From Actinomycetota bacterium (GTDB lineage: Bacteria; Actinomycetota; Nitriliruptoria; Nitriliruptorales; Nitriliruptoraceae): DNA of 64,000 bases. A program made the position numbers and the translations under genes. Within the stretch, counting starts at the first letter, position 1, and every line of letters begins with the position of its first letter. The DNA lies in contig JAHWKY010000008.1 in the NCBI GenBank assembly GCA_019347575.1, forward strand, positions 1-64,000, in the 5' to 3' direction. Of this stretch, positions 1 through 63,701 are shown piece by piece. The notes beneath the pieces are model-generated. The model searched no databases, was not told the origin of the DNA, and saw only the letters and a list, made by a program, of their open reading frames with translations.

Positions 1-1062
1 CATCTGGTTCAGCCCGCTGGCGACCTCGCCGATCTCGTCACCACTGACGATCGGGACCCGGGCGGTCAGGTCACCCGACCCGAGGCGCTTGTTGGCCTCC
101 ACCAGCGGCCGGACCTGGCGCAGGATCGCGCGCGACACCAGCGCCCCGACCGCGACGATGCCGACGAGCGCGAGCAGCAGGACCAGGGTCAGACGCAGGC
201 CCGTGCCCCGGAGGTCGGCGAAGGCCGACTCGGCGGACAGCGTCACGGCCACCGTCCCGCGGACCTCGCCCTGCAGGCCGTACGGGGCGTAGAGGGTGTG
301 CACCTCGGACCCGTCGATCTCGCCGACGACACGGACGAGGCGGTCCGGTTCGGGTCCGGTGTCCGCTGCCACCTCCGGCGTCGTGCCGGTCGCGGCCAGC
401 GGTCGCCCCGACTCCTCGAACAGCGCCAGGCCGCCACCGTCGAGACGTGCCGCGAGGTCGCCCGCCGCCAGTCCTTCCAGGACGCCGCTGATGTCCTGCG
501 CGACGACGGCTGCGCCGACCGGGGCGCACGGGTCGGTGCCGGAGCAGATCGGGGCGGCGATCGCCAGCAACGCGGACGCGTCGGTGGCGACGAACCCGGC
601 GTGCTTGTTCCCGTCCTCGCTCGCCAGTGCCGCGGCGATGAACGTGGTGCCCGCATCGAACGTGATGCCGCTGGGTGTACCGGCCGATCCCAGCGACGCG
701 AGCGGTCTCCCGTCCGTGTCGAGGACCGCGACCGCGTCGAGCTCGCCCTTCAGAGCGACCACGGACCGGAGCAGGTCCGCCGACGCCGCGGGGTCGCCTT
801 CGGTGACGGCGGCCGCCATCCCCTCGAGGTTGGCGGCGAGGTTGGCCGACTCCAGCAGGTACAGCTCGCGCTGCTGCAGCGTGCTGCGAACCTGGAGGGA
901 AGCCTCCTGGAGGTCGCGGTTGAGGGCCGACTGCGCCCGCGACGCCTGATCGCGGATCATGACGAACGCCCCGAACGCTCCGACGATCACCAACAGGGTC
1001 GCGAACGGGATGAGCAGCTTCCAGAACAGCCGCAGCTCACGGAACCGGCGGGTCGGGTTCAC
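1..1062 (-). CDS. membrane sensor with extracellular domain and HAMP linker (3' end outside window)
   Basis: The 354 visible residues read as a transmembrane helix near residues 13-33, an extracytoplasmic sensing region of about 245 residues, a second helix near 283-305 (LTLVLLLALVGIVAVGALV) and the start of a HAMP domain (RPLVEANKRLGSGDLTARV, then SGDEIGEVASGLNQM). The output domain lies beyond position 1, so it could be a histidine kinase, chemoreceptor, cyclase or diguanylate enzyme. GTG at 1062 is chosen because GAGGAGAG lies just upstream. It starts 22 bases after the stop of the upstream propeller gene, so it is probably the last gene of a three-gene operon; signal transduction from the propeller proteins is an inference. 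Confidence 0.85.
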   Translation of the reverse strand, partial: MNPTRRFRELRLFWKLLIPFATLLVIVGAFGAFVMIRDQASRAQSALNRDLQEASLQVRSTLQQRELYLLESANLAANLEGMAAAVTEGDPAASADLLRSVVALKGELDAVAVLDTDGRPLASLGSAGTPSGITFDAGTTFIAAALASEDGNKHAGFVATDASALLAIAAPICSGTDPCAPVGAAVVAQDISGVLEGLAAGDLAARLDGGGLALFEESGRPLAATGTTPEVAADTGPEPDRLVRVVGEIDGSEVHTLYAPYGLQGEVRGTVAVTLSAESAFADLRGTGLRLTLVLLLALVGIVAVGALVSRAILRQVRPLVEANKRLGSGDLTARVPIVSGDEIGEVASGLNQM

Positions 1063-1084
1063 GGCTCTCTCCTCTCGGGGGCGC

Positions 1085-3346
1085 TCACAGCGGCACCCAG
1101 AAGTCGTGCAGGAACAGGTCGTAGCCGAACAGGCCGTTGTGGTCGTTCTCGTCGAGGTTGTCGGCCTGGCTGGAGAACACCACGGTGCTGCCATCGGACG
1201 AGATGAACGACCACCTCGTGCAGCCGTTCGCTGCCTCGCCGGAGGTCGCCACCGACACCCGGGTGGTGGTCCCGGCGACGCGGTCGCGCACGAACGCGTC
1301 GGTACCCGGCGCGCAGTTGACGTTGCCCGTCTCCGGGTGGTGCTCACCGGGCGACTCGGGCGCCAGGTTGGAGGCGGCGGACTCGAACGTGACGTAGCGC
1401 CCGTCCGCGGAGATCGAGCTGCGGATCTGGTTGAAGTAGATCCGCTGCTCGATCTGCTGGTCGGCCACCTGCGGCTCCCCCGCGGAGTTGACGGTGGCCA
1501 TCTCCATCACCCCGGTCTCGAGGTCGTAGACGAACACGTCGGCGACGCTGTTGACGTCGCGGGGCCAGAGGTTGGTCGCCTGCGACGAGAACGCGACGAA
1601 GCGGCCGTCGTCGGACACGATCGGCACGTACGTCGCCCCGTTGGCGGGCTGGCCGTCGTAGCCCAGGCTCGCGTGGACGGTCTCGCCGGTGCGCAGGTCG
1701 CGTGCGTACACCTGCGGTGCCTGGAGGAATCCGGAGTTGTACTGCGGGCCGCCATCGATCGGCTGGATCTCCCCACCGTCCCACGCGCGGTAGACCACGA
1801 CGTTGCCGTCGGCGGAGATGCTCGGCATGTTCGCGTCGGCGTGCTCCGGCAGCGACGCCAGCATGGTCTCTCCGGTCCAGCGGTCGTGGCGGTACACCGC
1901 GGTGACGCTGCGGCTGTCCAACCCGGTGGGTCCCCATCCATCGGGTTCCTCGACCAGGCCACGCATCCAGCTCCAGAACACCACGTAGCGGCCGTCCGGG
2001 GTCATGTCGAACTCGCGCAGGAAGTAGCAGGAGTCCCGGACCGGCGGGCCGTCACGACCGCCGAAGCGCTCGCAGATCGCCGCTTCGACGAGCAGCAACG
2101 TCTCGGGCGGGGGCGGGGTCCCTTGCTCGCCGTGGCTCGACACCGACACCCGGGTGGTCTGGCCGGTGTGCCGGTCGCGGACGAACAGGTCCCACTCGTC
2201 GTTGGTGTCGTTGGGCACCAGGTTGGTCGCGGCGGACCAGAACGCGACGTAGCGGCCGTCGGCCGAGACCGCGTTGCGGACCGCCGAGCCGCTGCGCTCG
2301 TTGCCGGGTTCCCCGTCGGAGTTCACCGAGACCTGCTCGGTCACCCCGGTCACCCGGTCGTAGAGGAACACGTCCTGGTACTCGTCATCTCCCAGCGGGA
2401 CCTGGCTCTCGGCACAGCGGTACGGCCAGGTCGCGGAGTGGTACGACTCGTACACCACGTAGCGGCCGTCGGCGCTCATCGCCGGGTATTTCGCCGGATG
2501 CGGGATCGGGAAGTACGGGTGCACGTCGACCGGCAGGCACGACGCCTCCGACCACGTCGCGTCGCCGAGGTGGGGCACACGCGTGGTGGTGCCGAGCGGG
2601 TCGAGAGCGAACCGGATCTCACGCGCCCCGAGCGGGGCGCTGACCTGGAAGAAGTAGGTCGTTCCCGCCTCCGCCGGGAACCGCACCCCCGACGCTCCCG
2701 ACAGCGTGTCGTCGCAGCCGAGCACGTCGAGATCGTCCAGCGACGCCCCGACGAACACCCCCAGGGCCGTGGCGCTGCCGCGGGCCGCGACATGAGCCGT
2801 CAGCCCCACGGTCCGCTCGGTCGTGTAGCGGTACCACAGGGTCGGGCCGGCACGAGCACACGAGTCCGGCTCCCCGGGCTGCCGAGAGGCGCTGGACGCG
2901 TCCGTCGTCGCGGTGAACGGCACCGATGGGACCTCGTACGCCTCGTCGAAGGTGTCGTTGTCGGGGGGGTGGGTGACCTCGACGCGCGCCGCCGGAACCA
3001 CCGGCGGATCAGCCTCGGCCGCCAGCGCCGGCGCGCCCGCCGCCGGTCCCGGCGGAGGGGACACAGCGTCAGCATCCGCCGCCGACGGTGCGGCCAGCCC
3101 CAGCACCTCGGCGATGAACGCCTCGGTGAGCTGCGCGATCGTCCCCCGCAACGCGGAGTAATCGAGGGCGACGCCCCCCGACGCCCCGCTCAACAGCTCC
3201 CGGTCCGGGGTCGACAGCCCCACCTGCACCGCCCCGAACAGCACCAGCCACGCCGCCAACCCCGCACCGACGAGACGCGACGTGGCGAGCGTCCCGAGGC
3301 GACGCGCACCCGCAGCGCGGCGAAGTCGTGGAAGGAGGACGATCAC
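1085..3346 (-). CDS. membrane-anchored PD40 (TolB/WD40-like) beta-propeller protein, copy B
   Basis: A 753-residue protein with one N-terminal membrane helix (about residues 25-45, ending in QVGLSTPD), a conserved helical block to about residue 86, a Pro/Ala-rich linker, a beta-sandwich resembling the pre-peptidase C-terminal domain (GPTLWYRYTTERTVGLTAHV, then AEAGTTYFFQVSAPLG, about 150-250) and about seven PD40 blades (SADGRYVVYES, SADGRYVAFWS, SDDGRFVAFSS and others). PD40 folds are known as protein- or glycan-binding platforms in TolB and peptidases; no catalytic domain is visible. GTG at 3346 overlaps the stop of copy A by four bases, so translation is coupled. It is a paralogue of the preceding gene; ligand unknown. 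Confidence 0.85.
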   Translation of the reverse strand: MIVLLPRLRRAAGARRLGTLATSRLVGAGLAAWLVLFGAVQVGLSTPDRELLSGASGGVALDYSALRGTIAQLTEAFIAEVLGLAAPSAADADAVSPPPGPAAGAPALAAEADPPVVPAARVEVTHPPDNDTFDEAYEVPSVPFTATTDASSASRQPGEPDSCARAGPTLWYRYTTERTVGLTAHVAARGSATALGVFVGASLDDLDVLGCDDTLSGASGVRFPAEAGTTYFFQVSAPLGAREIRFALDPLGTTTRVPHLGDATWSEASCLPVDVHPYFPIPHPAKYPAMSADGRYVVYESYHSATWPYRCAESQVPLGDDEYQDVFLYDRVTGVTEQVSVNSDGEPGNERSGSAVRNAVSADGRYVAFWSAATNLVPNDTNDEWDLFVRDRHTGQTTRVSVSSHGEQGTPPPPETLLLVEAAICERFGGRDGPPVRDSCYFLREFDMTPDGRYVVFWSWMRGLVEEPDGWGPTGLDSRSVTAVYRHDRWTGETMLASLPEHADANMPSISADGNVVVYRAWDGGEIQPIDGGPQYNSGFLQAPQVYARDLRTGETVHASLGYDGQPANGATYVPIVSDDGRFVAFSSQATNLWPRDVNSVADVFVYDLETGVMEMATVNSAGEPQVADQQIEQRIYFNQIRSSISADGRYVTFESAASNLAPESPGEHHPETGNVNCAPGTDAFVRDRVAGTTTRVSVATSGEAANGCTRWSFISSDGSTVVFSSQADNLDENDHNGLFGYDLFLHDFWVPL

Positions 3347-5601
3347 GGCAGCACCGCGAAGTCGTGGAAGAACAGGTCGCCGCCCCAGTCGCCGTTGATG
3401 TCGTCCTCAACGAGGTTGTCGGCAGCGCTGAAGTAGACAACGGTGCCACCGTCGGCGGAGATGAACGGGGCGGCCGAGCAGCGGTTGCCCGGCTCGCCGG
3501 AGCTCGACACCGAGACGAGCAGGGTCGTACCCGCCACGCGGTCGCGGACGAAGACGTCGCTGCCGGCGGGGCAGTTGCCGGCGGCCGTGTCGGGGCCCTG
3601 ATCACGCCCCGAGTCCGAGTCGAGGTTGCTCGCGGTGGACTCGAAGGCGATGTAACGGCCGTCAGCGGAGATCGAGGGGAAGTGGTCGGCGTACGCGGTC
3701 CGCTCGTCGTCGATCTGCTGCTCCTCGGCGGAGTTGACGCTGACGAGCTCGAGTTCCCCACTCCCGAGGTCGGCGACGAACACGTCCGCGACGCCGTTGC
3801 GGTCGTGCGGCACGAGGTTGGTCGCCGACGAGGTGAAGGCAACGTAGCGACCATCGTCGGAGATCTTCGGCGGGCCCATGGAGGCGTCGGCGAGCCGGCC
3901 GTCGTGCCCGCGGGTCAGCATCCGCGTCTCGCCGGTGGTCAGGTCGCGCACGAACACCTGCGCCCACCACCGGTCGGGGAGCGGTGGTGGGTAGTCCTCG
4001 CGGCCCGGCAGCGGCGGATCGTCCTCCCCGCCCGGCAGGGGCTGGAACTGGTCGTGGACGGCGATGTAGGCGATCCGCGTGCCGTCGCTGGAGATGGTGG
4101 GGAAGGCTGCGTCCGCCTGGCTGAGTAGCGAGACCTTGATCGTCTCGCCCGTAACGCGGTCGTTGCGGTAGACGGGCTTGCGATCACGGGGCGCGTCGGC
4201 GTCCTCGACGAGACCGACGAGGTCGCTGCCGAACACCACGTAGCGACCGTCGGGGGTCATGTCGACGGTCCGGCGCCAGTGACAGCGGTCACGGACGGGG
4301 GGGCCGTCCTTGCCCCCGAAGGTCTCGCACCGGCGGTAGTGAAAGTCGTACCAGGGGTCCAACGGCGGAGGCCGGCCCTCCGCCCCGTCGCTCGACAGCG
4401 AGACGCGGGTGGTCTCGCCCGCCACCCGGTCGCGCACGAAGAGATCCCACGTACCGTTGGTGTCGTCGGGGACGAGGTTGGAGGCGTTGGACCAGAACGC
4501 GACGAAGCGACCGTCGGCCGAGATCGCCGCGCGATATATGCCGCTGCGCTCGTTGCCGGGTTCCTCCTCCGACGAGACCGACACCATCTCGGTGACGCCG
4601 GTGACGCGGTCGTACACGAACACGTCGAGGTAGTCATCCGACCCCAGCGGCACGCGGTGCTCGGGACAGTGGTGGGTGAAGGTCTCCGAGTAGTGGTTCG
4701 CGAAGACCGCGAACCGGCCGTCGTCGCTCAGCACCGGCGGCTGCGGTGACATGGGAGCCGGGTACGGCCCGAACTCGACGGGTTCGCAGGACGCGTCCGC
4801 GAACGTCTCGTCGCTCTGAGACGGCATGCGCGTGGTCGTCCCCAGCGCGTCGAGGCCGAACCGGACCTGGTTCGCGCCGAGCGGCGCAGCGACCTGGAAG
4901 CGGTAGGTCGTACCCGCCTCGGCGAGGAAGCGCACCACGGCCGGTCCCGACGCGCTGCCGTCGCAGCCGAGAGCCTCGAGCCGATCGAGGTCGACCCCGA
5001 CGAAGACCGCGACCGCGGCGGCGCTGCCACGGGCGACCGAGTGGGCCGTCAGGGCGGCGGTGCGGTCGGCCGTGTAGCGGTACCACAGCGTCGGCCCCGT
5101 CGCCGCGCACGAGGACGGCTCCCCGCCCTGCCGTGAGGCCGACGACGGGTCCGTCCGCGCCGCGAACGGCACCGACGACACGGGGTACGCGTCGCCGAAG
5201 GCGTCGTTGTCCGGCGCATGCACGACCTCGACTTGGCCGGCAGGTGCCACGACGTCCGGTGCCGTGGTCGGTGCGGCTACCGCACCCGGCGCCGGCTGGG
5301 GTGCCGGACCGGAGGGTTCCCTCCCGCCGCTCGTCGCGTCGGCCAGTCCGAGCACCTCGGCGATGAACGCCTCGGTGAGCTGCGCGATGGTCCCCCGCAG
5401 CGCGCTGTAGTCCAGGGCGGCGCCGGCCGACGCCCCGCTCAGCAGCTCCCGGTCGGGGGTCGACAGCCCGACCTGCACCGCCCCGAACAGCACCAGCCAC
5501 GCGGCCATGCCGGCACCGAAGAGACGCGAGGTGGCGAGCGCCCCGAGGTGACGCGCACCCGCGACCCCCGGGCTCCGCTCGGTCCGCTGCGACGCTGCCA
5601 T
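3343..5601 (-). CDS. membrane-anchored PD40 (TolB/WD40-like) beta-propeller protein, copy A
   Basis: This 752-residue paralogue of the next gene has the same order: membrane helix (about residues 27-46), conserved helical block (LDYSALRGTIAQLTEAF), Pro/Ala linker, PPC-like sandwich (GPTLWYRYTADRTAALTAHS), then about seven PD40 blades such as SADGRFVAFWSNASNLVPDD. The first 70 or so residues match copy B at roughly 65 of 71 positions, while the propellers are clearly more divergent. ATG at 5601 is preceded by a GGGGGAGG tract about 17 bases upstream, rather far for a ribosome site. It is the first gene of the operon propeller A, propeller B, HAMP sensor, and lies under the long leader shared with the response regulator gene. 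Confidence 0.85.
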   Translation of the reverse strand: MAASQRTERSPGVAGARHLGALATSRLFGAGMAAWLVLFGAVQVGLSTPDRELLSGASAGAALDYSALRGTIAQLTEAFIAEVLGLADATSGGREPSGPAPQPAPGAVAAPTTAPDVVAPAGQVEVVHAPDNDAFGDAYPVSSVPFAARTDPSSASRQGGEPSSCAATGPTLWYRYTADRTAALTAHSVARGSAAAVAVFVGVDLDRLEALGCDGSASGPAVVRFLAEAGTTYRFQVAAPLGANQVRFGLDALGTTTRMPSQSDETFADASCEPVEFGPYPAPMSPQPPVLSDDGRFAVFANHYSETFTHHCPEHRVPLGSDDYLDVFVYDRVTGVTEMVSVSSEEEPGNERSGIYRAAISADGRFVAFWSNASNLVPDDTNGTWDLFVRDRVAGETTRVSLSSDGAEGRPPPLDPWYDFHYRRCETFGGKDGPPVRDRCHWRRTVDMTPDGRYVVFGSDLVGLVEDADAPRDRKPVYRNDRVTGETIKVSLLSQADAAFPTISSDGTRIAYIAVHDQFQPLPGGEDDPPLPGREDYPPPLPDRWWAQVFVRDLTTGETRMLTRGHDGRLADASMGPPKISDDGRYVAFTSSATNLVPHDRNGVADVFVADLGSGELELVSVNSAEEQQIDDERTAYADHFPSISADGRYIAFESTASNLDSDSGRDQGPDTAAGNCPAGSDVFVRDRVAGTTLLVSVSSSGEPGNRCSAAPFISADGGTVVYFSAADNLVEDDINGDWGGDLFFHDFAVLP

Positions 5602-5627
5602 GCGATGCTCTCGTACCTCCCCCGGGG

Positions 5628-5728
5628 CGGTTCGACGCGGGCGCGCCCGGAACCTGCCTCAGCGGGTCACGTGGACCCTCCACGTAGCATCGTTCCATCG
5701 CGTGGAACACCCGGTCGTGCCCGGGAAC
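5628..5728 (-). promoter_or_regulatory. leader/operator element, copy 1 (before propeller operon)
   Basis: Read on the minus strand, this stretch contains GTTCC, 15 bases, then the palindrome GTTCCACGCGATGGAAC, then CGATG, and 51 bases further GTCGAACCG followed by a G-rich tract. The same parts with the same spacings stand before the response regulator gene (8358-8458), at nearly the same distance from the start codon (87 versus 84 bases). A local hairpin (ACGTGGA GGG TCCACGT) lies between the two conserved blocks. GGAAC followed about 15 bases on by GTCC also looks like an ECF-type promoter, so operator and promoter may overlap. Confidence 0.6.
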
Positions 5729-5752
5729 AGGGCCCGCCGCGACGGCGCGAGT

Positions 5753-6163
5753 TCAGGGCCGCAGCGACGATGCGTCGAGCTCGAGGTCCAGGACCGAGGC
5801 GACCCGTGCGATGTCCGCGTCGTGCGCGAGCAGCGTGGCGCCGTGCCGGTCAGCGACCGCCACGATCATGCAGTCGACCATCCCCCGTGGGGTGATCCTC
5901 GCCCTACGACAGCCGCGGTAGATCCGAACCGCCCCGTCGAAGTCGGTGACCGCATCGAAGCGCAGCAGATCGAAGCGCTTCAGGAGCCGCCGCAGGTCCG
6001 CCTCACGGGCGTCATCGCGTGCGCCGGCGAGGACCTCCATCACCACGGGCTCGGTGACCGCGACGGCGCCATCCTCCGCGATCAGCTCGGCGAGGCGGAG
6101 GTCGGCCCGACTGCCGGTGGCGCGGTCGTACTCCACCCACGCCGAGGTGTCGACGAGGATCAC
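5753..6163 (-). CDS. vapC: VapC-type PIN-domain ribonuclease toxin
   Basis: This 136-residue protein is a typical PIN toxin in length and motifs: LVDTSAW at the N terminus (Asp5), Glu43 in TEPVVMEVLAGA, Asp97 in GMVDCMIVAVA and Asp115/Asp117 in LLAHDADI form the acidic metal site used by this family to cut tRNA or other RNA. The start overlaps the stop of the antitoxin gene by four bases. The neighbouring antitoxin and its operator-like palindrome support a complete VapBC module. It lies between the propeller operon and a hydrolase remnant. Confidence 0.93.
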   Translation of the reverse strand: MILVDTSAWVEYDRATGSRADLRLAELIAEDGAVAVTEPVVMEVLAGARDDAREADLRRLLKRFDLLRFDAVTDFDGAVRIYRGCRRARITPRGMVDCMIVAVADRHGATLLAHDADIARVASVLDLELDASSLRP

Positions 6164-6372
6164 GACCCGTCGGGCGGTGGCACGTCCTCGGGTGCTTCGG
6201 CGATGGCGTGTGCCCCGCGCATCGCCCTCGCCTCATCGCGCGTCATCGGTTGCCCGGCCAGACGCCGCAGCGCCAGGTCGACCGCCTCGGTCTTGGTGCG
6301 CAGCCCGTAGCGGCGCATGATCGCCTCGACGTACGCGTCCTCGATCTCGATGTTGGTCCGGGTCCTCGCCAT
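6160..6372 (-). CDS. vapB: VapB-type ribbon-helix-helix antitoxin
   Basis: A 70-residue protein beginning MARTRTNIEIEDAYVEAIM, a ribbon-helix-helix DNA-binding segment of the VapB/DUF2191 type (TNIEIED strand, then YGLRTKTEAVDLALRRLAG), followed by an acidic C-terminal tail that would wrap the toxin. ATG at 6372 is preferred over the in-frame GTG at 6387 because family members start with MRTTI/MARTR and because a -10-like TACGAT lies seven bases upstream, which suggests a leaderless message. Its four-base overlap with vapC couples their synthesis. Confidence 0.9.
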   Translation of the reverse strand: MARTRTNIEIEDAYVEAIMRRYGLRTKTEAVDLALRRLAGQPMTRDEARAMRGAHAIAEAPEDVPPPDGS

Positions 6373-6408
6373 ACACCTATCGTACACGTGAGGTGCACGA
6401 CAGGTGTA
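6372..6408. promoter_or_regulatory. operator-like inverted repeat of vapBC
   Basis: Two 12-base arms match in 11 positions (TACACCTATCGT at 6372-6383 and ACGACAGGTGTA at 6397-6408) with a 13-base spacer. The repeat abuts the vapB start codon and covers a -10-like TACGAT. VapBC pairs are known to repress their own promoter through the ribbon-helix-helix antitoxin, so this is the natural autoregulatory site. Confidence 0.7.
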
Positions 6409-6445
6409 CGGCGTACGGTGTGCGGCCGCGGTCGCCGCGCTGAGG

Positions 6446-7077
6446 TCAGTCCAGCCAGAACGCGTTCGGGGCGCGGCGCCCCGTGAAGTCGGAGACCGGC
6501 CGGCCCTCGATCCTGTAGGGGACGCTGCCCATCGTCAGCGGGTCGTAGGTGCCCTGCCCGATCGAGGAGCGGTCGGCGGAGCCGTCGAACACCTCGGCGG
6601 TCAGCCGCTCGGCCGCGGTCCGATCACGCTGGAGGTGCAGATCGAACCAGGCTAGCCCTCCTCGGCGATGCGCTGCAGCAGCGACCAGTACCCCGGCACC
6701 GCTCCAGCCGCGCCATAGCCAGGTGTGAAGACCAGCCCGGGGTAGTTGCCGCGTTCGAGGGGTGCGAACAGCCGCACCTCGAGTGTCGCGCCGTAGCGGT
6801 TGTCGAACGTCGTCTCGAGCATGCGCCCGCGCGTGCCATCCCAGTCGTGGCGGTACACGTCGAGCCAGTAGCGCCAGCCCTCCTCGGTCCCCAGAGCGGC
6901 GCCGATCCCGGGCTCCCGCAGCCGCATCATGTAGTCGGGGTTGAGCATCTGGTCGCGCGCGGTGGCCCCGATGTTCTGGGGCGCCATCAACCGCTCGGGC
7001 TCGACCGGGGGTGCCGCCTGGAACGCCAGCAGCAGCGCGGCGAGCAGAGCCATTGTGGATCCGTGGCGGTAGCGCAT
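6446..7077 (-). pseudogene. remnant of secreted alpha/beta-hydrolase with internal deletion and frameshift
   Basis: An ATG at 7077 with a GGGGAG ribosome site opens a protein with a signal peptide (MALLAALLLAFQAAPP) and the N-terminal part of a hydrolase (ATLEVRLFAPLERGNYPGLVFTPGYG, then YWSLLQRIAEEG), stopping at 6652. A different frame continues directly with AWFDLHLQRDRTAAERL to FWLD and a stop at 6446, which reads like the C terminus of the same family. The nucleophile elbow (GxSxG) and roughly 150 middle residues are missing. The family guess (dienelactone/PET-hydrolase-like) is tentative. The gene cannot make an active enzyme. Confidence 0.7.
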
Positions 7078-7239
7078 GTCGTCTCCCCTCGTGGAGGTGT
7101 GCTACCGGCGGGGCGTGCCCTCACCTGGAACGGCTGGGCTCCACTCGGAACGGTCTGCTGGCACCCGGTCGGGACGGATCAGAACGGCGTAGCAGCAGTC
7201 CGCAGCGGCGGGCGGGAAGCTCGACCCCGACGGGTGACG

Positions 7240-8334
7240 TCACGACAGCTCCCAGTCGACCGGCACCTCCGGGTCGTAGCAGCAGAACGTCCCGGTGCGG
7301 ACCGAGCGGTCGAGGTGGCGGCCGAGCTCGGGGTGCACCTCCTCGATGCGCCTGACCGCACGCCGGATCCCGCGTGTGACCGAGATGCGGGCCCGCTCGA
7401 CGTCCGAGGAGACGGGGCGGTCGCGACCCCCCAGCCCGACCGCCCCGGCCAGCTGCTCGGTAAGCAACTGGAGCTCCTCGCGAGCCCTCGCCGCTCGCTC
7501 CTGGTCACCGAACTCCTCCGCCTCCTCGATGTCGTCCTGCAGCGCCTCCATGCGGTCGCGATACGCCCGCTTGGCGGCACCGTCAAGGGCCGGCCCTGTA
7601 CCCGTGCCCGCCTGCGCCTGTAGACCTTCCTGAGCAGCTGCCGCAGATGTGACCTCGGGGCGGTGGCCCGCACGCGCGGCGACGAGCTCCGCCGCGAGCA
7701 CCTCACGCCCCGGCGCCGCCAGCAGCTCGGCTAGATCGGCGAGGCCCTTTAGGTCGGCGACGTGCGCCGTCCGGCCCTCGAAATCGAGCTTCCAGAACTC
7801 CCCGGACCGACTGAACGTGCCCGACGCGACGCCCTCACTGTCGCTCGCGGCTCGTGAGTCGGACGGCGCGCTTCCGGGCCCACGGATCTGCGACAGCAGC
7901 ACCTCGGCCAGGTGCGGCGGGAACACCAGCTCGCCCGCAGCGACACGACGGATCGCGTCGGCCACCTCCGGTGCACCGGCCGTCTTCAGCAGGTAGCCGG
8001 AGGCGCCGGCCTCGACCGCGCCGACCACCTTGGCGCGGTCGTCGAAGGACGACAGGAACAGCACCCTGACCGTCGGGAGCTCGGCGACGATGCGCCGCGT
8101 CGCGGCTACCCCGTCGATGCCAGGCAGGTCGACGTCCATCACGACGACGTCAGGTGCCGCGCCGGTGATCGCCTCCACAGCCGACTCACCGTCGTCAGCC
8201 TCGGCGATGACCTGACCGGCCCCCTGGCGCTCGATGACCTTCCGCAACGTCTCTCGCCAGAGCGGGTGATCGTCCACGAGCATGACGGTGGGGACCCCGC
8301 TGCTGGGGTTCTCGGCTCCGCGTGACGGTTGCAT
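7240..8334 (-). CDS. response regulator with REC domain and atypical winged-helix-like output domain
   Basis: Residues 15-135 are a receiver domain: acidic pair Asp21/Asp22, phospho-acceptor Asp67 in VVVMDVDLPG, Ser95/Ser96, and Lys117 in GYLLKTAG. The sequence resembles NarL receivers, but no LuxR helix-turn-helix follows. Instead, from about residue 175, SGEFWKLDFEGRTAHVADLKG, a coiled stretch (QDDIEEAEEFGDQERAARAR) and ERARISVTRGIRRAVRRIEE, ending in GTFCCYDPE, match the C-terminal domain I recall at the end of large actinobacterial ATPase or cyclase-like regulators. No kinase gene adjoins. Its leader is shared with the propeller operon. DNA binding by the C-terminal domain is an inference. 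Confidence 0.85.
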   Translation of the reverse strand: MQPSRGAENPSSGVPTVMLVDDHPLWRETLRKVIERQGAGQVIAEADDGESAVEAITGAAPDVVVMDVDLPGIDGVAATRRIVAELPTVRVLFLSSFDDRAKVVGAVEAGASGYLLKTAGAPEVADAIRRVAAGELVFPPHLAEVLLSQIRGPGSAPSDSRAASDSEGVASGTFSRSGEFWKLDFEGRTAHVADLKGLADLAELLAAPGREVLAAELVAARAGHRPEVTSAAAAQEGLQAQAGTGTGPALDGAAKRAYRDRMEALQDDIEEAEEFGDQERAARAREELQLLTEQLAGAVGLGGRDRPVSSDVERARISVTRGIRRAVRRIEEVHPELGRHLDRSVRTGTFCCYDPEVPVDWELS

Positions 8335-26235: not shown

Positions 26236-27269
26236 ATGAACGACGGCGGTGACGACCGGGGCACGGTCCCACCCACCGACACCCGGACGCCGGTGCCGCA
26301 GCCGGTGCCGCTCGACACATCGCCGACGGTCACCCCGACCTCGATCGCGACCACCGAGGCGACCCCGACGCCGCAGGCGGAGCCGGTGTACGAGGAGTTC
26401 GCGCTACCGCCTGGGACCGGCCCGCACGACGTCGCCCCGGCCCCCGACGGGACCGTCTGATTCACGGGCCAGCGCAACGGTGTGCTGGGACGGCTCGACC
26501 CGGCGACCGGCGAGGTCGAGGAAGTCGACCTCGGCAACGGGTCGGCGCCGCACGGCGTGATCGTCGGACCGGACGGCGCAGCGTGGGTGACCGACGGCGG
26601 ACGCAACGCGATCCAGCGCGTCGACCATGACAGGCTCGAGGTCGCCGAGTTCCCGCTCCCGAGCGCGAACGCCAACCTCAACACCGCCGCGTTCGACGGC
26701 GACGGAACGCTGTGGTTCACGGGTCAGTCCGGCGTCTACGGCAGCGTCGATGGGGCAACCGGCGAGGTGGAGGTCCACGACGCGCCCCGCGGCCGCGGGC
26801 CCTACGGCATCGCGTCTACCCCCGACGGGACGGGTACTCGTCGCTGGCGGGCAGCTACATCGCTCGGATCGACGGGCCCGACGGCGGCCTCACGGTCTTC
26901 GACGTCCCGACCGACGGCGGCGGAGCGCGCCGCATCTGGAGCGACAGCGGCGGCGACCTGTGGGTGACGGAGTGGTTCGCCGGCAAGCTCGCGCGCTTCG
27001 ACCCCGACACCGAGACCTGGACCGAGTGGGACCTGCCGACCGACGGGGCGCAGCCGTACGCGGTGTTCGTCGACGACCGCGACCTCGTGTGGGTGACCGA
27101 CTTCGCCAGCGATGCCCTGGTCCGATTCGACCCCACCACCGAGGAGTTCACCTCGTTCTCGTTCCCCACGCCTGGTGCCGAGGTGCGCCAGCTCCTCGGC
27201 CGCCCCGGCGAGGTGTGCGCTGTCGGGTCGGCGGTCGGCACCGCGATCCTTCTGCGTACCGCGGCGTGA
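26236..27269 (+). pseudogene. virginiamycin B lyase-like (NHL-type) beta-propeller, broken by a stop and a frameshift
   Basis: The reading starts with a Thr/Pro-rich stretch, then propeller repeats of the streptogramin lyase type: GPHDVAPAPDGTV, SAPHGVIVGPDGAAWVTDGG, GDGTLWFTGQ, GGDLWVTEWFAGKLARFDP and DLVWVTDFASDALVRFDP. A TGA at 26458-26460 stands where the repeat pattern wants Trp (DGTV-W-FTGQ). A frameshift near 26832 moves the downstream part (YSSLAGSYIARIDGP onward) to another frame. Two independent lesions make assembly error less likely. Many such proteins are not antibiotic lyases, so resistance should not be assumed. No signal peptide is visible. Confidence 0.75.
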
Positions 27270-27386: not shown

Positions 27387-28334
27387 GTGAGGTTCGCGGC
27401 GACCCCGACGCTCGACACCGATGGTCCGGTCGCGGAAGCGATGGCCGATCTGTGGTGGCTGATGCTCGCGCTCGGCGCGCTCGTCTTCGTCCTCTTCCTC
27501 GCTCTGCTCATCAGGGGACTCCTCCGCGGGGCGCCGGAAGGTGTCGACGACGAGGAGCACCACCGCAGACTGACCCGGCGGTGGATCGGCCTAGGGGGGG
27601 TCGCGTTGCCCGCGATCGTGATCTCCGTCGTGTTCGGCGCGACCCTGCGGACGATGGCGGACGTGCCCTCGGACACATCCGTGGATGCGCTCGAGGTGCA
27701 GGTCACCGGGCACCAGTTCTGGTACGAGGTCCGCTACCCCCAGCACGGCATCGTCACCGCCAACGAGATCCACCTTCCGGTCGGCCGCCAGATCGAGTTC
27801 CGGTTGACGTCCGCGGACGTGATCCACAGCTTCTGGATCCCCGCGCTGGGCGGCAAGCTCGACATGCTCCCCGAGCGGACCAACACGCTCGTCCTGCAGG
27901 CAGACGAACCCGGGGTGCACACCAGCCGCTGCGCGGAGTTCTGTGGGCTCCAGCACGCGCTCATGGGCATGGTCGTCGTGGTGGAACCCGCCGACGAGTT
28001 CGACGCCTGGGTCGAACGCCACGTCTCGTTCACCGAGCCGGAGTCGCCAGGGGCACGCGAAGGACGCGGGGTGTTCATCAGCGCCGGCTGCGTCGAGTGC
28101 CACGCCTTCCGCGGCGGGGAGCAGATCCGTGGTGACGGCCCACCGGGGCCCGACCTCACGTGGCTGACCGAGCGCCGCACGCTGGGTGCGGCCACGATCC
28201 CCAACACCGAGCAGAACCTCATCGACTGGATCACCGATCCCCACGTGTTCAAGGAGGGGATCGAGATGCCTGCCAGCACGTTGACCCGCACCCAGCTCGA
28301 TGCGCTGCTCGCCTACCTCCGAGCCGACGGATGA
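27387..28334 (+). CDS. ctaC: cytochrome c oxidase subunit II with C-terminal cytochrome c domain (operon 1)
   Basis: The 315-residue protein has two membrane helices, the CuA domain and a haem-c tail, as in caa3-type oxidases. CuA ligands are visible in VIHSFWIPALGGKLD and RCAEFCGLQHALMGM; the haem site is CVECH with Met in EMPAST as likely axial ligand. Unlike the second copy in this window it has no lipobox. It accepts electrons from cytochrome c or another donor and passes them to the fused subunit I. The stop overlaps the next start by four bases (ATGA). Confidence 0.95.
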   Translation: MRFAATPTLDTDGPVAEAMADLWWLMLALGALVFVLFLALLIRGLLRGAPEGVDDEEHHRRLTRRWIGLGGVALPAIVISVVFGATLRTMADVPSDTSVDALEVQVTGHQFWYEVRYPQHGIVTANEIHLPVGRQIEFRLTSADVIHSFWIPALGGKLDMLPERTNTLVLQADEPGVHTSRCAEFCGLQHALMGMVVVVEPADEFDAWVERHVSFTEPESPGAREGRGVFISAGCVECHAFRGGEQIRGDGPPGPDLTWLTERRTLGAATIPNTEQNLIDWITDPHVFKEGIEMPASTLTRTQLDALLAYLRADG

Positions 28335-30919
28335 GCGAGCACGAGCCCTCGGGCAGCGGGGCGGCAACACCGCACGCGGGCCGATCGCCGTCGGGGGCCC
28401 GGACCCCCACGATCGAGGAGCCACGGACCCACGAGGAGCTCGACCGGCTGTGGGCCGACCCCCCCGGCTTGTGGGGACAGCTCAAGGCGGTTCAGAACGA
28501 CAACATCGGCGTGCGGCTGATGCTGACCGGCTTCTTCTTCCTGCTGCTGGGTGGCAGCTTCGACTCGCTGCTCATGCGCGCTCAGCTCGCGTTCCCGGAG
28601 AGCGATCTGCTGGGCGCGCAGCTGTACAACGAGCTGTTCACCAACCACGGCTCGGTGACGATGTTCCTCGTCATCTTGCCCATCTTCGAGGGCTTCGCGA
28701 TCCTGCTGCTGCCGATCATGCTCGGCACCCGCGAGATGCCGTTCCCGCGCCTCGGGGCGTTCGCGTACTGGACGTTCCTGTTCGGGGGCCTGCTGTACTA
28801 CAGCAGCACACTGTTCCAGCTCGTCCCCGACGCCGGCTGGTTCGCCTACGTCCCGTTGAGCGGACCCGAGTTCTCACCCGACCTTGCGATCGACTTCTGG
28901 GTGCTGGGCCTGGGCGTGGCCGAGGTCGGAGCGATCGCCGCTGCGGTCGAGATCATCATCGGCGTGTGCAAGATGCGGGCCCCGGGGATGACCATCACCC
29001 GCGTCCCGCTGTTCGCGTGGGCGATGCTGATCACCTCGTTCATGATCCTGTTCGCGTTCACGCCGCTGATCATCGGCAGCCTGCTGCTCGAGCTCGAGCG
29101 CGGCTTCGGTGCACGGTTCTTCGACATCAGCCGGGGCGGCAGCTCGCTGCTGTGGCAGCACCTGTTCTGGATCTTCGGACACCCCGAGGTCTACATCCAG
29201 TTCCTGCCCGCGACCGGCATCGTGTCGATGATCGTGCCCACCTTCACCCGGCACCGCATGGTCGGCTACGGCTGGATCGTCGGCGCCATGGTGGGGATCG
29301 GGTTCCTGTCGTTCGGGCTGTGGGCCCACCACATGTTCGCCACCGGCCTGTCGCCACTGGTTCTGAGCTTCTTCGCAGCGGCGAGCATGGCCATCGCCAT
29401 CCCGGCCGGGGTGCAGATCTTCGCTTGGCTCGCCACGATCTGGTCGGGGCGGGTGGTGTGGAAGACGCCGTTCCTGTTCGTCGTCGGGTTCCTGGTGATC
29501 TTCGTCATCGGAGGGATCACCGGCGTGATGACGGCGGCGGTGCCGTTCGACCTGCAGATCCACGACACCTACTTCGTGGTCGCTCACCTCCACTACGTGC
29601 TGATCGGCGGCGTCGCGTTCCCCATCTTCGCCGGCGTCTACTACTGGTGGCCCAAGTTCACCGGGAGGATGCTCAACGAGCGACTCGGACGCTGGAACTT
29701 CTGGCTGCTGTTCGTCGGCGTGAACGTCGCGTTCTGGCCCATGCACCGCCTCGGACTGATGGGGATGCCCCGGCGGGTCTACACCTACGAGGCCGGGCTG
29801 GGCTGGGACCTGCTCAACCTGATCTCGTCGATCGGGGTCCTGATCATCTTCGCCGGCATCGGCGTGTTCATCCTCAACCTCATCGTCAGCTGGCGCCACG
29901 GAGAGGAAGCCGGCCACAACCCCTGGGGCGCCGACAGCCTCGAGTGGGCGGTCGCGTCACCACCAGTCGAACACGGGTGGTCGATCGTGCCGCTGATCCG
30001 CAGCCGCCACCCGCTGTGGGACCAGTCGCAGCTCGAGCGCGGCGACCCCAAGCTGGAGCGGTTCGTGCGAGCGCTGGCCGAGTGGCCTCTGCGCTGGCGC
30101 GCTGCCGTGGTGGTCGGTACCGCCGACGCCCGACCCCAGGAGGTCTTCCGCGTCGCCGACCCCTCGATCTGGCCCTTCTTCGCCGGTGGCGGTGTGGTGC
30201 TGATCTTCCTCGCCGAACTCGCCAAGCTGCGGTGGGGAGCGCTGGTCGGGGCGCTCGTCGTCGTGGTCGCCGCGATCGGCTGGAACTGGCCCCGCGAGGC
30301 GCCCATGTCGCCGGAGGAGGAGGCCGAGTTCGAGGAGGAGCACAACGTCGCGGTGAACGCGGGTGGGAGCGTCATCATCGCGCGGTGGGGCGTGGGATTG
30401 GCCATCCTGTTCGTCGCGATCGCGTTCTCTGCGCTGCTGCTGAGCTACTTCTACCTGCGGCTCGAGAACCCCGCCTGGCCCCCGTTGGGGGTACCCGACC
30501 CTGGGCTGCTGTGGACGGGAACCGCCGGTGCGCTGCTCCTCGCGAGCGGTGTCGCCGTCCACCGCGCCGTGAGTGCGATCGCGCGCGGGCAACGACGACC
30601 GTTCCTCGTCGGCCTCGGGGCGACGCTGCTCCTCGGTGTCGCCGGTACCGCGGTCCAGCTGATCGAGGTCGCCCGGTGGGGTGTGGGGCTGCAGGACCAC
30701 GCCTACGGCTCCATCGTCCTCACCCTCGCCGGGTTCATCATCACGGGCTTCGGCGCCGCCACGATCATGGTGCTCGCGACCCTGTACTGGTCGGTGCGCG
30801 GCATCTACAGCGAGCAGCGCTACGCCCCGCTCATCAACGTCTCGCGGTTCTGGACCGCGATGGTCGCGATCTGGCTGGTCGGCTTCGGCACGCTCGCTCT
30901 GGGACCCCAGCTCGTATGA
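28331..30919 (+). CDS. ctaD: cytochrome c oxidase subunits I and III fused (operon 1)
   Basis: An 862-residue fusion. Residues about 60-590 are subunit I: low-spin haem His in FTNHGSVTMF, the His-Tyr site in FGHPEVYI, CuB histidines in LWAHHMF, and HDTYFVVAHLHYV. Residues about 650-862 are a short subunit III. Residues that line the proton channels in classical A1 oxidases differ: GTREMPFPRLG replaces the D-channel GxxDxxFPRxN, and PAGVQIFAW replaces PTGxKxFxW, so the K-channel Thr and Lys are Ala and Gln. I/III fusions are known in caa3 oxidases. Proton pumping may differ from the second oxidase. Confidence 0.93.
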   Translation: MSEHEPSGSGAATPHAGRSPSGARTPTIEEPRTHEELDRLWADPPGLWGQLKAVQNDNIGVRLMLTGFFFLLLGGSFDSLLMRAQLAFPESDLLGAQLYNELFTNHGSVTMFLVILPIFEGFAILLLPIMLGTREMPFPRLGAFAYWTFLFGGLLYYSSTLFQLVPDAGWFAYVPLSGPEFSPDLAIDFWVLGLGVAEVGAIAAAVEIIIGVCKMRAPGMTITRVPLFAWAMLITSFMILFAFTPLIIGSLLLELERGFGARFFDISRGGSSLLWQHLFWIFGHPEVYIQFLPATGIVSMIVPTFTRHRMVGYGWIVGAMVGIGFLSFGLWAHHMFATGLSPLVLSFFAAASMAIAIPAGVQIFAWLATIWSGRVVWKTPFLFVVGFLVIFVIGGITGVMTAAVPFDLQIHDTYFVVAHLHYVLIGGVAFPIFAGVYYWWPKFTGRMLNERLGRWNFWLLFVGVNVAFWPMHRLGLMGMPRRVYTYEAGLGWDLLNLISSIGVLIIFAGIGVFILNLIVSWRHGEEAGHNPWGADSLEWAVASPPVEHGWSIVPLIRSRHPLWDQSQLERGDPKLERFVRALAEWPLRWRAAVVVGTADARPQEVFRVADPSIWPFFAGGGVVLIFLAELAKLRWGALVGALVVVVAAIGWNWPREAPMSPEEEAEFEEEHNVAVNAGGSVIIARWGVGLAILFVAIAFSALLLSYFYLRLENPAWPPLGVPDPGLLWTGTAGALLLASGVAVHRAVSAIARGQRRPFLVGLGATLLLGVAGTAVQLIEVARWGVGLQDHAYGSIVLTLAGFIITGFGAATIMVLATLYWSVRGIYSEQRYAPLINVSRFWTAMVAIWLVGFGTLALGPQLV

Positions 30920-31410
30920 GTGCGGAGGAGCGACCTGTGGACGATCCGGCCGAGGCCGACGGGGCGCGCTCGCCGTCGCACGGGACACCCGCGCCGGTCG
31001 AGATCGCCACCGACATCCGCCAGCGCAGCATCTGGGCCATCTTCCTGCTCGGCCCGGTCACGTGGTTCGCCCACTTCATGGTCGTCTACCTCGTCGCCGA
31101 GGCCGGCTGCACGGGCGACGGTCCGGGCCTGACCGTCTTCGATCCGCCGGTGCCCGTAGCCCTGACGCTGATCGCGACGGTCCCCGCTGTGACGGTGTGC
31201 GCGGCCGGCGCGGTGTGGGGGTTCCGCCGCTGGCGCCTCGGGCTGCGCGCACTCGAGGCCGGGCCCGACGAGGCGGAGGAGCTGCCCGACGGACTCGCGG
31301 CCGGCCGGGGTCCTCCTGGCCTGGCGTTCGTCGGGTTCCTGCTCAGCACCTTCTTCCTCGTGGCGGTGCTGTACACCGCCGCCCCCGCGACCATCCTCGG
31401 ACCATGCTGA
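30916..31410 (+). CDS. small membrane protein of oxidase operon 1
   Basis: A 164-residue protein with a charged 40-residue N terminus and three predicted membrane helices (IWAIFLLGPVTWFAHFMVVY, a second near residues 75-100, a third near 140-160). It starts within the stop of the fused oxidase gene (ATGA) and overlaps ctaG by seven bases, so it is made with the oxidase. It may play the part of subunit IV or an assembly factor; no named family is recognised. Confidence 0.75.
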   Translation: MSAEERPVDDPAEADGARSPSHGTPAPVEIATDIRQRSIWAIFLLGPVTWFAHFMVVYLVAEAGCTGDGPGLTVFDPPVPVALTLIATVPAVTVCAAGAVWGFRRWRLGLRALEAGPDEAEELPDGLAAGRGPPGLAFVGFLLSTFFLVAVLYTAAPATILGPC

Positions 31411-32261
31411 TGGTGACGCTCGCCCACGCTGGCAGACCCGTCGCGCCCCACGACGTGTGGTCGTCGTGGAACCTCGACCCGCTGCTCGTGCTACTGCTCG
31501 TCGGGGCGCTGTGGCTGCACCGGCGTGGCCGGGCGCAGGGACCACGACCGCAGGACGTGTGGCGGCATCGCGCGTTCGTGGGCGCCATCGCCGTCCTCGC
31601 CGTGGCGCTGCTGTCGCCGCTCGAGGTGACGTCCGGGGCCCTGGCGTCCGCGCACATGGTCCAGCACGTCCTGCTCGTGCTGGTGGCGGCGCCCCTGCTC
31701 GCGGTCAGCGCCCCGGCCAGCACCCTGCTGCGCGGGATGCCGCTGCGGGTGCGACGGGCCAGCGGGCTGATCCGTCACGGTCTGGGTGAGCAGCGGTCCG
31801 CGTGGCTGCGCTTGCCGACCCACCCGGTGACGGTGCTGGTGCTCCACGTCGGTGTGCTGTGGTTCTGGCACAGTGCGGCGGCCTACGACGCCGCGCTCGG
31901 CAACGAGGCCATCCACGCGGCCGAGCACACCAGCTTCCTCGTGACCGCCCTGCTCTTCTGGCGGGTGGTGGTCGGGCCCCGGACCGCAGCGCGCGTCCCC
32001 GGTGGTCTCGGCGTGCTACTGGTCTTCGGGGCGGCGATGGCCAGCGTCATGCTGTCGCTGCTGCTGACCTTCGCCCCGACCCCGTGGTACCGGGGGTACA
32101 CGGGCACCACCGCGGCCTGGGGGCTGGACCAACTCGCCGACCAGCAGCTCGCGGGCGTGCTGATGTGGGTACCGGCCGGAGCGATCCACGTCGGGATCGC
32201 CTTGGCTCTGTTCGCGGCGTGGCTGCGGGGCTCCCCCGGCGAGTCCTACGCATCGAGGTAG
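31404..32261 (+). CDS. ctaG: CtaG (Caa3-type) cytochrome oxidase assembly protein
   Basis: The 285-residue protein has about seven membrane helices and the landmarks of the CtaG_caa3 family: SAHMVQHVLLVLVAAPLLAVSAP, HVGVLWFWHSAAAYDAAL, HAAEHTSFLVTALLFW and DQLADQQLAGVLMWVPAG. This family is required for making active caa3 oxidase and is distinct from the Cox11-type CtaG. It overlaps the preceding gene by seven bases and ends operon 1; an inverted repeat covers its stop codon. Confidence 0.92.
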   Translation: MLMVTLAHAGRPVAPHDVWSSWNLDPLLVLLLVGALWLHRRGRAQGPRPQDVWRHRAFVGAIAVLAVALLSPLEVTSGALASAHMVQHVLLVLVAAPLLAVSAPASTLLRGMPLRVRRASGLIRHGLGEQRSAWLRLPTHPVTVLVLHVGVLWFWHSAAAYDAALGNEAIHAAEHTSFLVTALLFWRVVVGPRTAARVPGGLGVLLVFGAAMASVMLSLLLTFAPTPWYRGYTGTTAAWGLDQLADQQLAGVLMWVPAGAIHVGIALALFAAWLRGSPGESYASR

Positions 32262-60730: not shown

Positions 60731-61807
60731 GTGACGTTGGGCGACCCACGCACGTGGCGGTGCCGTGCCCGGTGGCTGCTCCCACTCGCCGCGGTCGCCG
60801 CCCTCAGCGCCTGCTCCGGCGAGCAGACGGCACTCGACCCGCAGGGACCGTTCGCGGAGCGCCCCGACGACCTGTTCCGAGTGGTCTTCTGGATCGCCGT
60901 CGGGGTTTTCGTGCTCGTCCAGGGCCTGATCATCGTCGCGGTCCTGAAGTTCCGCGACCGCGGGGATGACGAGACGCTGCCGGTGCAGACCCACGGCAAC
61001 ACCAAGCTCGAGATCCTGTGGACCGTCATCCCGGCGCTCATCCTGGCGGGCATCGCCGTCCCGACCGTCCAGTCCATCTTCGAGCTGTCCGAGGAGCCCG
61101 ATGGAGCCGTGACCATCGAGGTGTTCGGCCACCGCTGGTGGTGGGAGTACCAGTACCCCGAGGCCGGCGTCGAGACCGCGAACGAGATGGTCATCCCCGT
61201 CGGCCGCCCGGTGCGCCTGGTCATGACGGCCGAGGAAGCCGACCAGCCCGATGTCGGCGTGATCCACAGCTTCTGGGTCCCCGCCCTCGCGGGGAAGCAG
61301 GACGTGATCCCCGGCCGCATCACGACCCTCAACATCCAGGCCGACACCGAGGGCCGCTACCTGGGCCAGTGCGCCGAGTACTGTGGTCTCAGCCACGCCA
61401 ACATGCGCCTGCGCGTGATCGCGGTGCCGCCCGACGAGTTCGACCAGTGGCTCGAGGAGCAGGCCGCGGACGCGCCACGGCCCGACGAGGGAACGCTCGA
61501 AGCGGAGGGAGAGCAGCTCTTCTTCGGTGGGGCGTGCGTGGGCTGCCACGCCGTGCGGGGCGTCGAGGTGGACGGCACCCGTGCCACGGGCAACGTCGGG
61601 CCCGACCTGACCCACTTCGCGACCCGCGAGGAGTTCGCCGGCGCCATCTTCGAGGTCAACGAGGACAACCTCGCCGAGTGGCTCGAGGACCCGCCGGCGA
61701 TGAAGCCCATGACCCCGGACGAGCGGCCCTCGCTCGGCATGCCCGACCTGGGGCTGAAGCCCGACGAGATCCGTGCCCTGGTCGCCTACCTGCTCAGCCT
61801 GACGTAG
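60731..61807 (+). CDS. ctaC: cytochrome c oxidase subunit II with C-terminal cytochrome c domain (operon 2)
   Basis: A 358-residue lipoprotein form of subunit II: lipobox LAAVAALSAC, two membrane helices, CuA ligands in VIHSFWVPALAGKQD and QCAEYCGLSHANM, and a haem-c domain with CVGCH and PMTPDERPSLGMP. GTG at 60731 follows AAGGAG. It passes electrons to the conventional subunit I encoded 13 bases on. Confidence 0.95.
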   Translation: MTLGDPRTWRCRARWLLPLAAVAALSACSGEQTALDPQGPFAERPDDLFRVVFWIAVGVFVLVQGLIIVAVLKFRDRGDDETLPVQTHGNTKLEILWTVIPALILAGIAVPTVQSIFELSEEPDGAVTIEVFGHRWWWEYQYPEAGVETANEMVIPVGRPVRLVMTAEEADQPDVGVIHSFWVPALAGKQDVIPGRITTLNIQADTEGRYLGQCAEYCGLSHANMRLRVIAVPPDEFDQWLEEQAADAPRPDEGTLEAEGEQLFFGGACVGCHAVRGVEVDGTRATGNVGPDLTHFATREEFAGAIFEVNEDNLAEWLEDPPAMKPMTPDERPSLGMPDLGLKPDEIRALVAYLLSLT

Positions 61808-61820
61808 AGGAGCGCAACCG

Positions 61821-63701
<1,881 letters not shown>

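Follow-up and report, generated by a model that had tools for sequence, protein, structure and literature searches.

A K-less fused caa3-type oxidase of a nitriliruptorial actinomycete and its apparently rebuilt D route

How might a haem-copper oxidase (HCO) bring protons to its active site when most residues of its two classical proton channels have been exchanged? The question is raised by a fused subunit I/III protein encoded at 28331-30919 of contig JAHWKY010000008.1 (assembly GCA_019347575.1; Actinomycetota, Nitriliruptoraceae), of which the first 64,000 nucleotides form the window analysed here and supply the coordinates below, except those given with a locus number (L). In the textbook A-family enzyme, the active-site tyrosine receives one or two protons in each cycle by the K route. 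We read the fused protein, with moderate confidence, as part of a working caa3-type A-family oxidase in which the K route has been lost and in which, within the sub-clade designated type III below, the D route would have been rebuilt with carboxylates that serve as the main path of the chemical protons.

Channel residues and class of the fused oxidase

The residues compared (eight for the D channel, four for the K channel) were taken from passages of PMC3084760, carry Paracoccus denitrificans numbers and were aligned to the second oxidase of the window. One of the eight D-channel residues is identical in the fused protein (Glu278, here Glu286): Asp124 at the entrance has become Glu135 (within REMPFP), Asn113, Asn131 and Asn199 have become Ile124, Gly142 and Glu207, Ser134 and Ser193 have become Ala145 and Ala201, and Tyr35 is a Leu. 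Two of the four K-channel residues are kept, Tyr280 (Tyr288) and Ser291 (Ser299), and Thr351 and Lys354 are Ala359 and Gln362, with neither a replacement Lys nor the Tyr-Ser motif of A2 oxidases found. The six histidine ligands of haem and CuB (H106, H284, H333, H334, H419 and H421) are all retained, as is the active-site Tyr. The sites concerned are as follows.

28331..30919 (+), fused subunits I and III, 862 aa, type III (no K route, three added Glu), running from the ATG at 28331 to the last base of the stop codon at 30919; Pfam, alignment and AlphaFold2
28688..28690 (+), Glu120, a new residue of transmembrane helix 2 (P. denitrificans site 109), a single turn away from that of Asn113; alignment, helix 96-131
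28733..28735 (+), Glu135 replacing the entrance Asp124; alignment, Glu in 18/18 close relatives
28922..28924 (+), new Glu198 (P. denitrificans site 190); alignment, helix 184-214
28949..28951 (+), Glu207 replacing Asn199, the residue that defines type III; alignment
29183..29194 (+), Pro285 to Tyr288 of HPEVY, with Glu286 (E278) and the active-site Tyr288 (Y280) retained; alignment
29405..29416 (+), Ala359 (site T351) to Gln362 (site K354), the K-channel Thr and Lys being lost; alignment

Relatives more than 60% identical to the window protein (18 rows, the window protein being counted twice) all have I124, E135, G142, E207 and Q362, and because the changes are common to every close row they are not the product of chance. 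An earlier note on this DNA had described the Glu-Met-Pro at the D-channel Asp segment, the Gly at a conserved Asn (N131), the Ala/Gln pair in place of the K-channel Thr/Lys and the full set of metal ligands, and had credited the second oxidase with every channel residue; the alignment bears out each of these observations. Its headline, that the enzyme lacks the classical D- and K-channel residues, stands for the K channel, which is lost at both ends, and is overstated for the D channel, where the entrance is still acidic, Glu278 is kept and new Glu residues have arisen in the clade at sites 109, 190 and 199. To the changes listed there can be added those at N113, N199, S134, S193 and Y35, the new E120 and E198, and the loss of an entrance Glu from subunit II.

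The fused gene begins within the end of the subunit II gene, and its product is matched on a single chain by both COX1 (residues 59-504) and COX3 (606-850), so the I/III fusion is genuine. The neighbouring genes, and the second operon, are listed here.

27387..28334 (+), subunit II, caa3-type, with a CuA site (CAEFCGLQHALM) and a C-terminal haem c motif CVECH, start codon putative; Pfam COX2 E=7e-18, Cytochrom_C E=7.5e-8
27588..27590 (+), subunit II codon for Gly where the K-channel entrance Glu would stand; alignment columns, position counted along the open reading frame (ORF)
30916..31410 (+), small membrane protein, 164 aa, matching no Pfam family, kept in the operon of close relatives; Pfam, neighbourhood comparison
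31404..32261 (+), Caa3_CtaG assembly factor; Pfam PF09678 E=2.4e-53
60731..61807 (+), subunit II of operon 2, in which both the CVGCH haem c motif and the K-channel entrance Glu (TKLEILWT) occur; sequence, alignment
61821..63701 (+), conventional (type I) subunit I of operon 2, with eight of eight D- and four of four K-channel residues; alignment

The order subunit II, fused I and III, small membrane protein and CtaG recurs in close relatives, and a match to CtaA (haem A) lies in the genome about 5 kb past the window edge. Together with the CuA and haem c sites of subunit II, the fusion and CtaG, these features identify 27387-32261 as a caa3-type oxidase operon, and the combination of coxB, a COX1-3 fusion and CtaG in one operon is that of COX operon type a. 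The genes upstream, a Peptidase S15 and a Vgb-like gene, were considered as partners and rejected, their homologues occurring in 1/69 and 0/69 type III loci, respectively. The virginiamycin B lyase-like beta-propeller at 26482-27269 (+) appears to be split over two frames (26482-26967 and 26712-27269), which suggests a frameshift or sequence error.

The window enzyme, a caa3 oxidase of family A, resembles the A1 type in its Glu motif and departs from it in its D- and K-channel residues. It scores 671.3 bits against the TIGR02891 cut-off of 670.75, has the six His and the helix VI Tyr, and stands apart from the two B-type rows in the tree; the A1 motif XGHPEVY with Glu278 is present as FGHPEVY. 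The earlier note left room for an ordinary A2 or B type, and neither fits: the protein has no YS and no Lys, all eight YSHP rows of the set keep Lys354, and it reaches 66.7 bits against a cut-off of 700 with the SoxB model. Automated annotation masks this type of enzyme, the window protein passing the NCBI 'cytochrome c oxidase subunit I' model and plasmid-borne relatives being labelled just ctaD.

Conservation and history of the K-less types

Loci were collected through their similarity to the window protein and through membership of the COX1 family, so the counts that follow do not measure prevalence. Rows with Lys354 were designated type I, rows lacking it with all Asn residues present type II, and rows lacking it with Glu at site 199 type III. 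A first set held 148 typed rows (26 type I, 25 type II and 97 type III), and an enlarged set 215 subunit I rows (213 unique and two window references), divided into 126 type III, 54 type I, 25 type II, eight A2-like (YSHP, Lys kept) and two B. Type III occurs in Actinomycetota, Pseudomonadota, Planctomycetota and Chloroflexota. Among 398 sampled Pseudomonadota genomes, 39 had a match at E <= 1e-160 and all 30 loci fetched were type III; the sub-clade of the window itself is rarer, a sample of 396 Actinomycetota genomes yielding 12, counting that of the window, with a match of at least 65% identity. The I/III fusion was rejected as a defining feature, as type III includes unfused proteins (e.g., L014, L015 and L016). 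One 12.6-kb stretch from Paracoccus rhizosphaerae (L081) holds two different type III oxidases, at 1-1431 (-) and 4995-7592 (+).

The new glutamates are strongly conserved. Within the 126 type III rows, site 190 is Glu in every row, site 109 is Glu in 122 (Lys in two, Gln in two), site 113 is always hydrophobic and Lys354 never occurs. In the 97 rows of the first set, E198 and E207 are invariant and E120 is present in 94 (Lys in two, Gln in one). Both E198 and E207 belong to the 73 invariant type III columns, where the median column conservation is 0.73; E207 helped to define the type and E198 did not. No row with Lys354 in the enlarged set has Glu at site 199 or 109, the latter being occupied in type I mostly by Ala, Ser or Thr, and site 190 is Gly in 26/26 type I rows of the first set. 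A further glutamate, E254 (window 29090-29092), near the end of the fifth helix, is present in 97/97 type III and 12/25 type II rows, type I rows having mostly Met, Thr or Leu there.

With so many channel residues altered, the protein could be the degenerate product of a pseudogene, or no oxidase but an enzyme that reduces something else, for instance nitric oxide (NO), and either reading we regard as very improbable. The frame is open, codon differences of 0.06-0.10 at second positions versus 0.29-0.32 at third positions (four pairs) indicate purifying selection, and the ligands and Tyr are invariant in 97/97 type III rows. Tyr288, the cross-linkable tyrosine, is present, and NO reductases are described as lacking this Tyr in passages of PMC3084760.

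The loss of the K route is supported from a second, independent side. Its entrance Glu in subunit II, which we take to be E78 of P. denitrificans, was not used in defining the types. The canonical K route begins near a Glu of subunit II (passages of PMC8361435), and this residue is present in the neighbouring subunit II of 6/6 A2-like and 39/40 type I rows and in 0/14 type II and 0/120 type III rows, a comparison that leaves aside 33 of the 213 unique rows for want of a usable subunit II; of the 182 aligned, two were B-type and gapped at the site. The lone type I exception has a Leu at the entrance site with an acid no more than four columns away; the 134 type II and III rows all lack an acid over that span. 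That subunit II has also lost its entrance Glu supports a true loss of the route.

The chief alternative to such a loss is a K route that survives in altered form, with Gln362, Ser299, Tyr288 and bound water joined to another entrance, and with the new glutamates serving structure, pumping or pKa tuning. Tyr280 is kept throughout, Ser291 is found in the window protein and 16/18 close relatives, the Lys site carries a polar Gln in 87/97 type III rows, and K-like routes without Lys are described for the B and C families in passages of PMC3084760. The missing acid in subunit II speaks against such a route, as do the Ile at the Lys site of the other 10/97 type III rows and the Ala at Ser291 in 68/97, and we consider it unlikely.

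A tree of 120 thinned rows, in which A2-like and B sequences were included, unites types II and III in one clade with a support of 100 in the Shimodaira-Hasegawa-like approximate likelihood ratio test (SH-aLRT), type III being supported at 99 and type II not (30). This clade is nested among Lys-containing rows with support of 85-99. An earlier tree without the A2-like rows had type II paraphyletic, and the single clade appeared once A2-like and Chloroflexota rows were added. Both trees were quick ones, made without bootstrap and rooted on the long B branches, so the root is weak and loss of the K route, rather than its gain, hangs on the moderately supported nesting. Because types II and III are one clade, the K route was probably lost once and at both ends, the Lys of subunit I and the Glu of subunit II. 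These sequences would most simply be read as a single disappearance of the K route, after which type III acquired its three glutamates. Repeated K-channel losses in family A are discussed on an archaeal tree in passages of PMC8239418.

Site 278 varies within type II. Eleven rows from Burkholderiales, Nitrosomonadaceae and others (L070, L071, L093, L098, L103, L105, L109, L110, L111, L125 and L242) have Trp in place of Glu278 (HPWVY) and mostly Ala at Lys354, and Asp, Val or Ile stands at site 278 in other type II rows; the A1 Glu is therefore not fixed in this branch either.

Proton supply, pumping and cellular role

The AlphaFold2 model of the fused protein (predicted local distance difference test 90.6, predicted template modelling (TM) score 0.92) is closest by Foldseek to 2yev_A, the subunit I+III of Thermus caa3 (TM 0.82 by query), and aligns to Rhodobacter sphaeroides 3dtu_C with Z 41.4 and a root-mean-square deviation (rmsd) of 1.7 over 500 residues. 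E120 lies in model helix 96-131 and E198 and E207 lie in helix 184-214. Both E120 and E207 probably face the D region, since Asn113 stands one turn away from site 109 on a shared helix and the Glu at site 199 takes the place of a D-channel Asn. The D route thus looks rebuilt with carboxylates and not lost, insofar as sequence can tell.

A mechanism can be proposed on this basis. Electrons would pass as usual from haem c to CuA, haem a and the haem a3/CuB site. The Asn/Ser lining of the D route would have been exchanged for hydrophobic residues and membrane-embedded glutamates at sites 109, 190 and 199, and a carboxylate relay would run from the acidic entrance (124) to Glu278 (Glu286), through which the chemical protons, including those that canonically use K, may enter. 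The retained metal ligands and Tyr and the intact operon, with CtaG and haem c, support a working oxidase; we infer good turnover, new glutamates that line one path, and their carriage of protons. A broader form of the proposal, held only tentatively, is that a large branch of the A family, devoid of any K route, reduces O2 to water with every chemical proton, including that of the active-site Tyr, delivered by a D-region Glu relay, some members doing so even with an Asn at the entrance.

Several points weigh against the proposed relay. E198 occupies the i-3 position relative to the Ser193 site and may face elsewhere, and the putative convergence of E120, E198 and E207 on one channel is read from sequence positions rather than from distances in the model. 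Four of the 126 type III rows have no Glu at site 109, and seven, all Pseudomonadota (L212, L213, L214, L216, L218, L229 and L231), have Asn at site 124, an exchange that blocks the canonical D route (passages of PMC8361435), so that the entrance may have moved or the proposed relay may not operate. Canonical enzymes mutated at the K-channel lysine (K362M) are severely inhibited, and the activity of the type III enzymes would be deduced here from their genes.

Pumping is a separate matter. In canonical enzymes the D channel carries all pumped protons and the K channel one or two chemical protons (PMC8079940), and according to passages of PMC8361435, pumping is uncoupled by mild alterations close to the D entrance, and exchange of Asp for Asn or Glu for Gln blocks the D route. 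As such changes can uncouple or block, the pumping of type III enzymes cannot be predicted. It is conceivable, if rather improbable, that they reduce O2 and pump few or no protons, an altered Asn gate decoupling the pump and leaving the enzyme as an electron sink. Single D-entrance changes reduce or abolish pumping with turnover unaffected (passages of PMC8361435), the title of PDB entry 3ehb describes a decoupling mutant of the P. denitrificans D pathway, N113, N131 and N199 are all replaced in the window oxidase, and a Lys354 oxidase usually accompanies type III in the genome (see below). Conversely, Glu or Asp occupies site 278 in 97/97 type III rows, a new invariant transmembrane Glu suggests a maintained proton function, and the D route, the canonical path of all pumped protons (PMC8079940), seems here rebuilt and not degraded.

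Fifteen genomes bearing type III were examined (10 and a further 5), of which 14 also have a Lys354 oxidase (type I or A2-like), and for this reason type III looks auxiliary. The case for a K-less enzyme as sole oxidase (G004, with one HCO and no bd oxidase) was set aside, the genome being a 420-contig draft whose genus mate G017 has a second HCO. Several Pseudomonadota type III operons (L041, L046, L039 and L066) lie near cytochrome c-domain genes, several with more than one matched stretch, and this proximity suggests that they may be fed by periplasmic dehydrogenases. The type III operon of Neorhizobium sp. JUb45 (L051, 2243-3878) has xdhC and mobA-like genes as neighbours, which hints at a connection with a molybdenum hydroxylase.

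A widespread clade that has lost both the K-channel Lys and the entrance Glu and carries conserved new glutamates offers a natural experiment on which proton routes are needed and on how pumping is gated. All three types (I, II and III) are encoded in each of three genomes of the set, namely that of the window, G001 and G025, so that the conventional, K-less and K-less/Glu-rebuilt designs are comparable within one cell. The third oxidase of the window genome (L140:4349-6301 (-), contig C39) is type II, with the D-channel Asn intact, Gln at the K-channel Lys and Ser at Thr351.

Comparison with known systems

The A1 aa3/caa3 oxidases of P. denitrificans, R. sphaeroides and mitochondria share with the window enzyme the fold (1ar1_A, Z 40.1, rmsd 1.8 over 502), GHPEVY with Glu278, the ligands and CuA. 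Unlike them, the window enzyme has one of eight D and two of four K residues, no subunit II entrance Glu and three new glutamates. The caa3 oxidase of Thermus thermophilus (2yev) likewise has fused subunits I+III and a haem c on subunit II, but is ~35% identical to the window enzyme; it is an A2 type with both channels.

The literature search found no paper on a bacterial A-family clade without both ends of the K route or with added glutamates, supplements and subscription papers (among them Degli Esposti 2020, cited in PMC8239418) lying outside its scope such that a prior listing is possible. The proteobacterial COX operon 'type a' (PMC4013037; A1 subtype a, PMC6431628) shares the COX1-3 fusion and CtaG in the operon, but the missing K route and the new glutamates are not described in main-text passages of those papers. 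A proteobacterial type III operon on an Aminobacter plasmid (L159) encodes coxB, a fused ctaD, a small ORF and an assembly protein, the third gene being smaller than that of the window. Family A oxidases with a lost or variant K channel are reported from archaea and iron oxidisers in passages of PMC8239418, and these may overlap with the type II/III clade.

Two further systems bear on physiology, each drawn from passages of its source. Deletion strains of coxMNOP, another alternative aa3-type cluster, exist in Pseudomonas pseudoalcaligenes (PMC5492768). The earlier note suggested that the window enzyme may serve different oxygen or energy conditions, and the one relative for which physiology was found is CaaA of Burkholderia cenocepacia H111. 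The caaBAC operon of this strain (PMC11742914) is close in organization, with a fused subunit I+III (CaaA), a cytochrome c-fused subunit II and a small membrane protein next to them, and is expressed only under nutrient limitation and on solid medium. It probably differs in type: the counterpart in B. multivorans, identified by gene order, is type II, with the Asn kept, Ala at K354 and Trp at E278.

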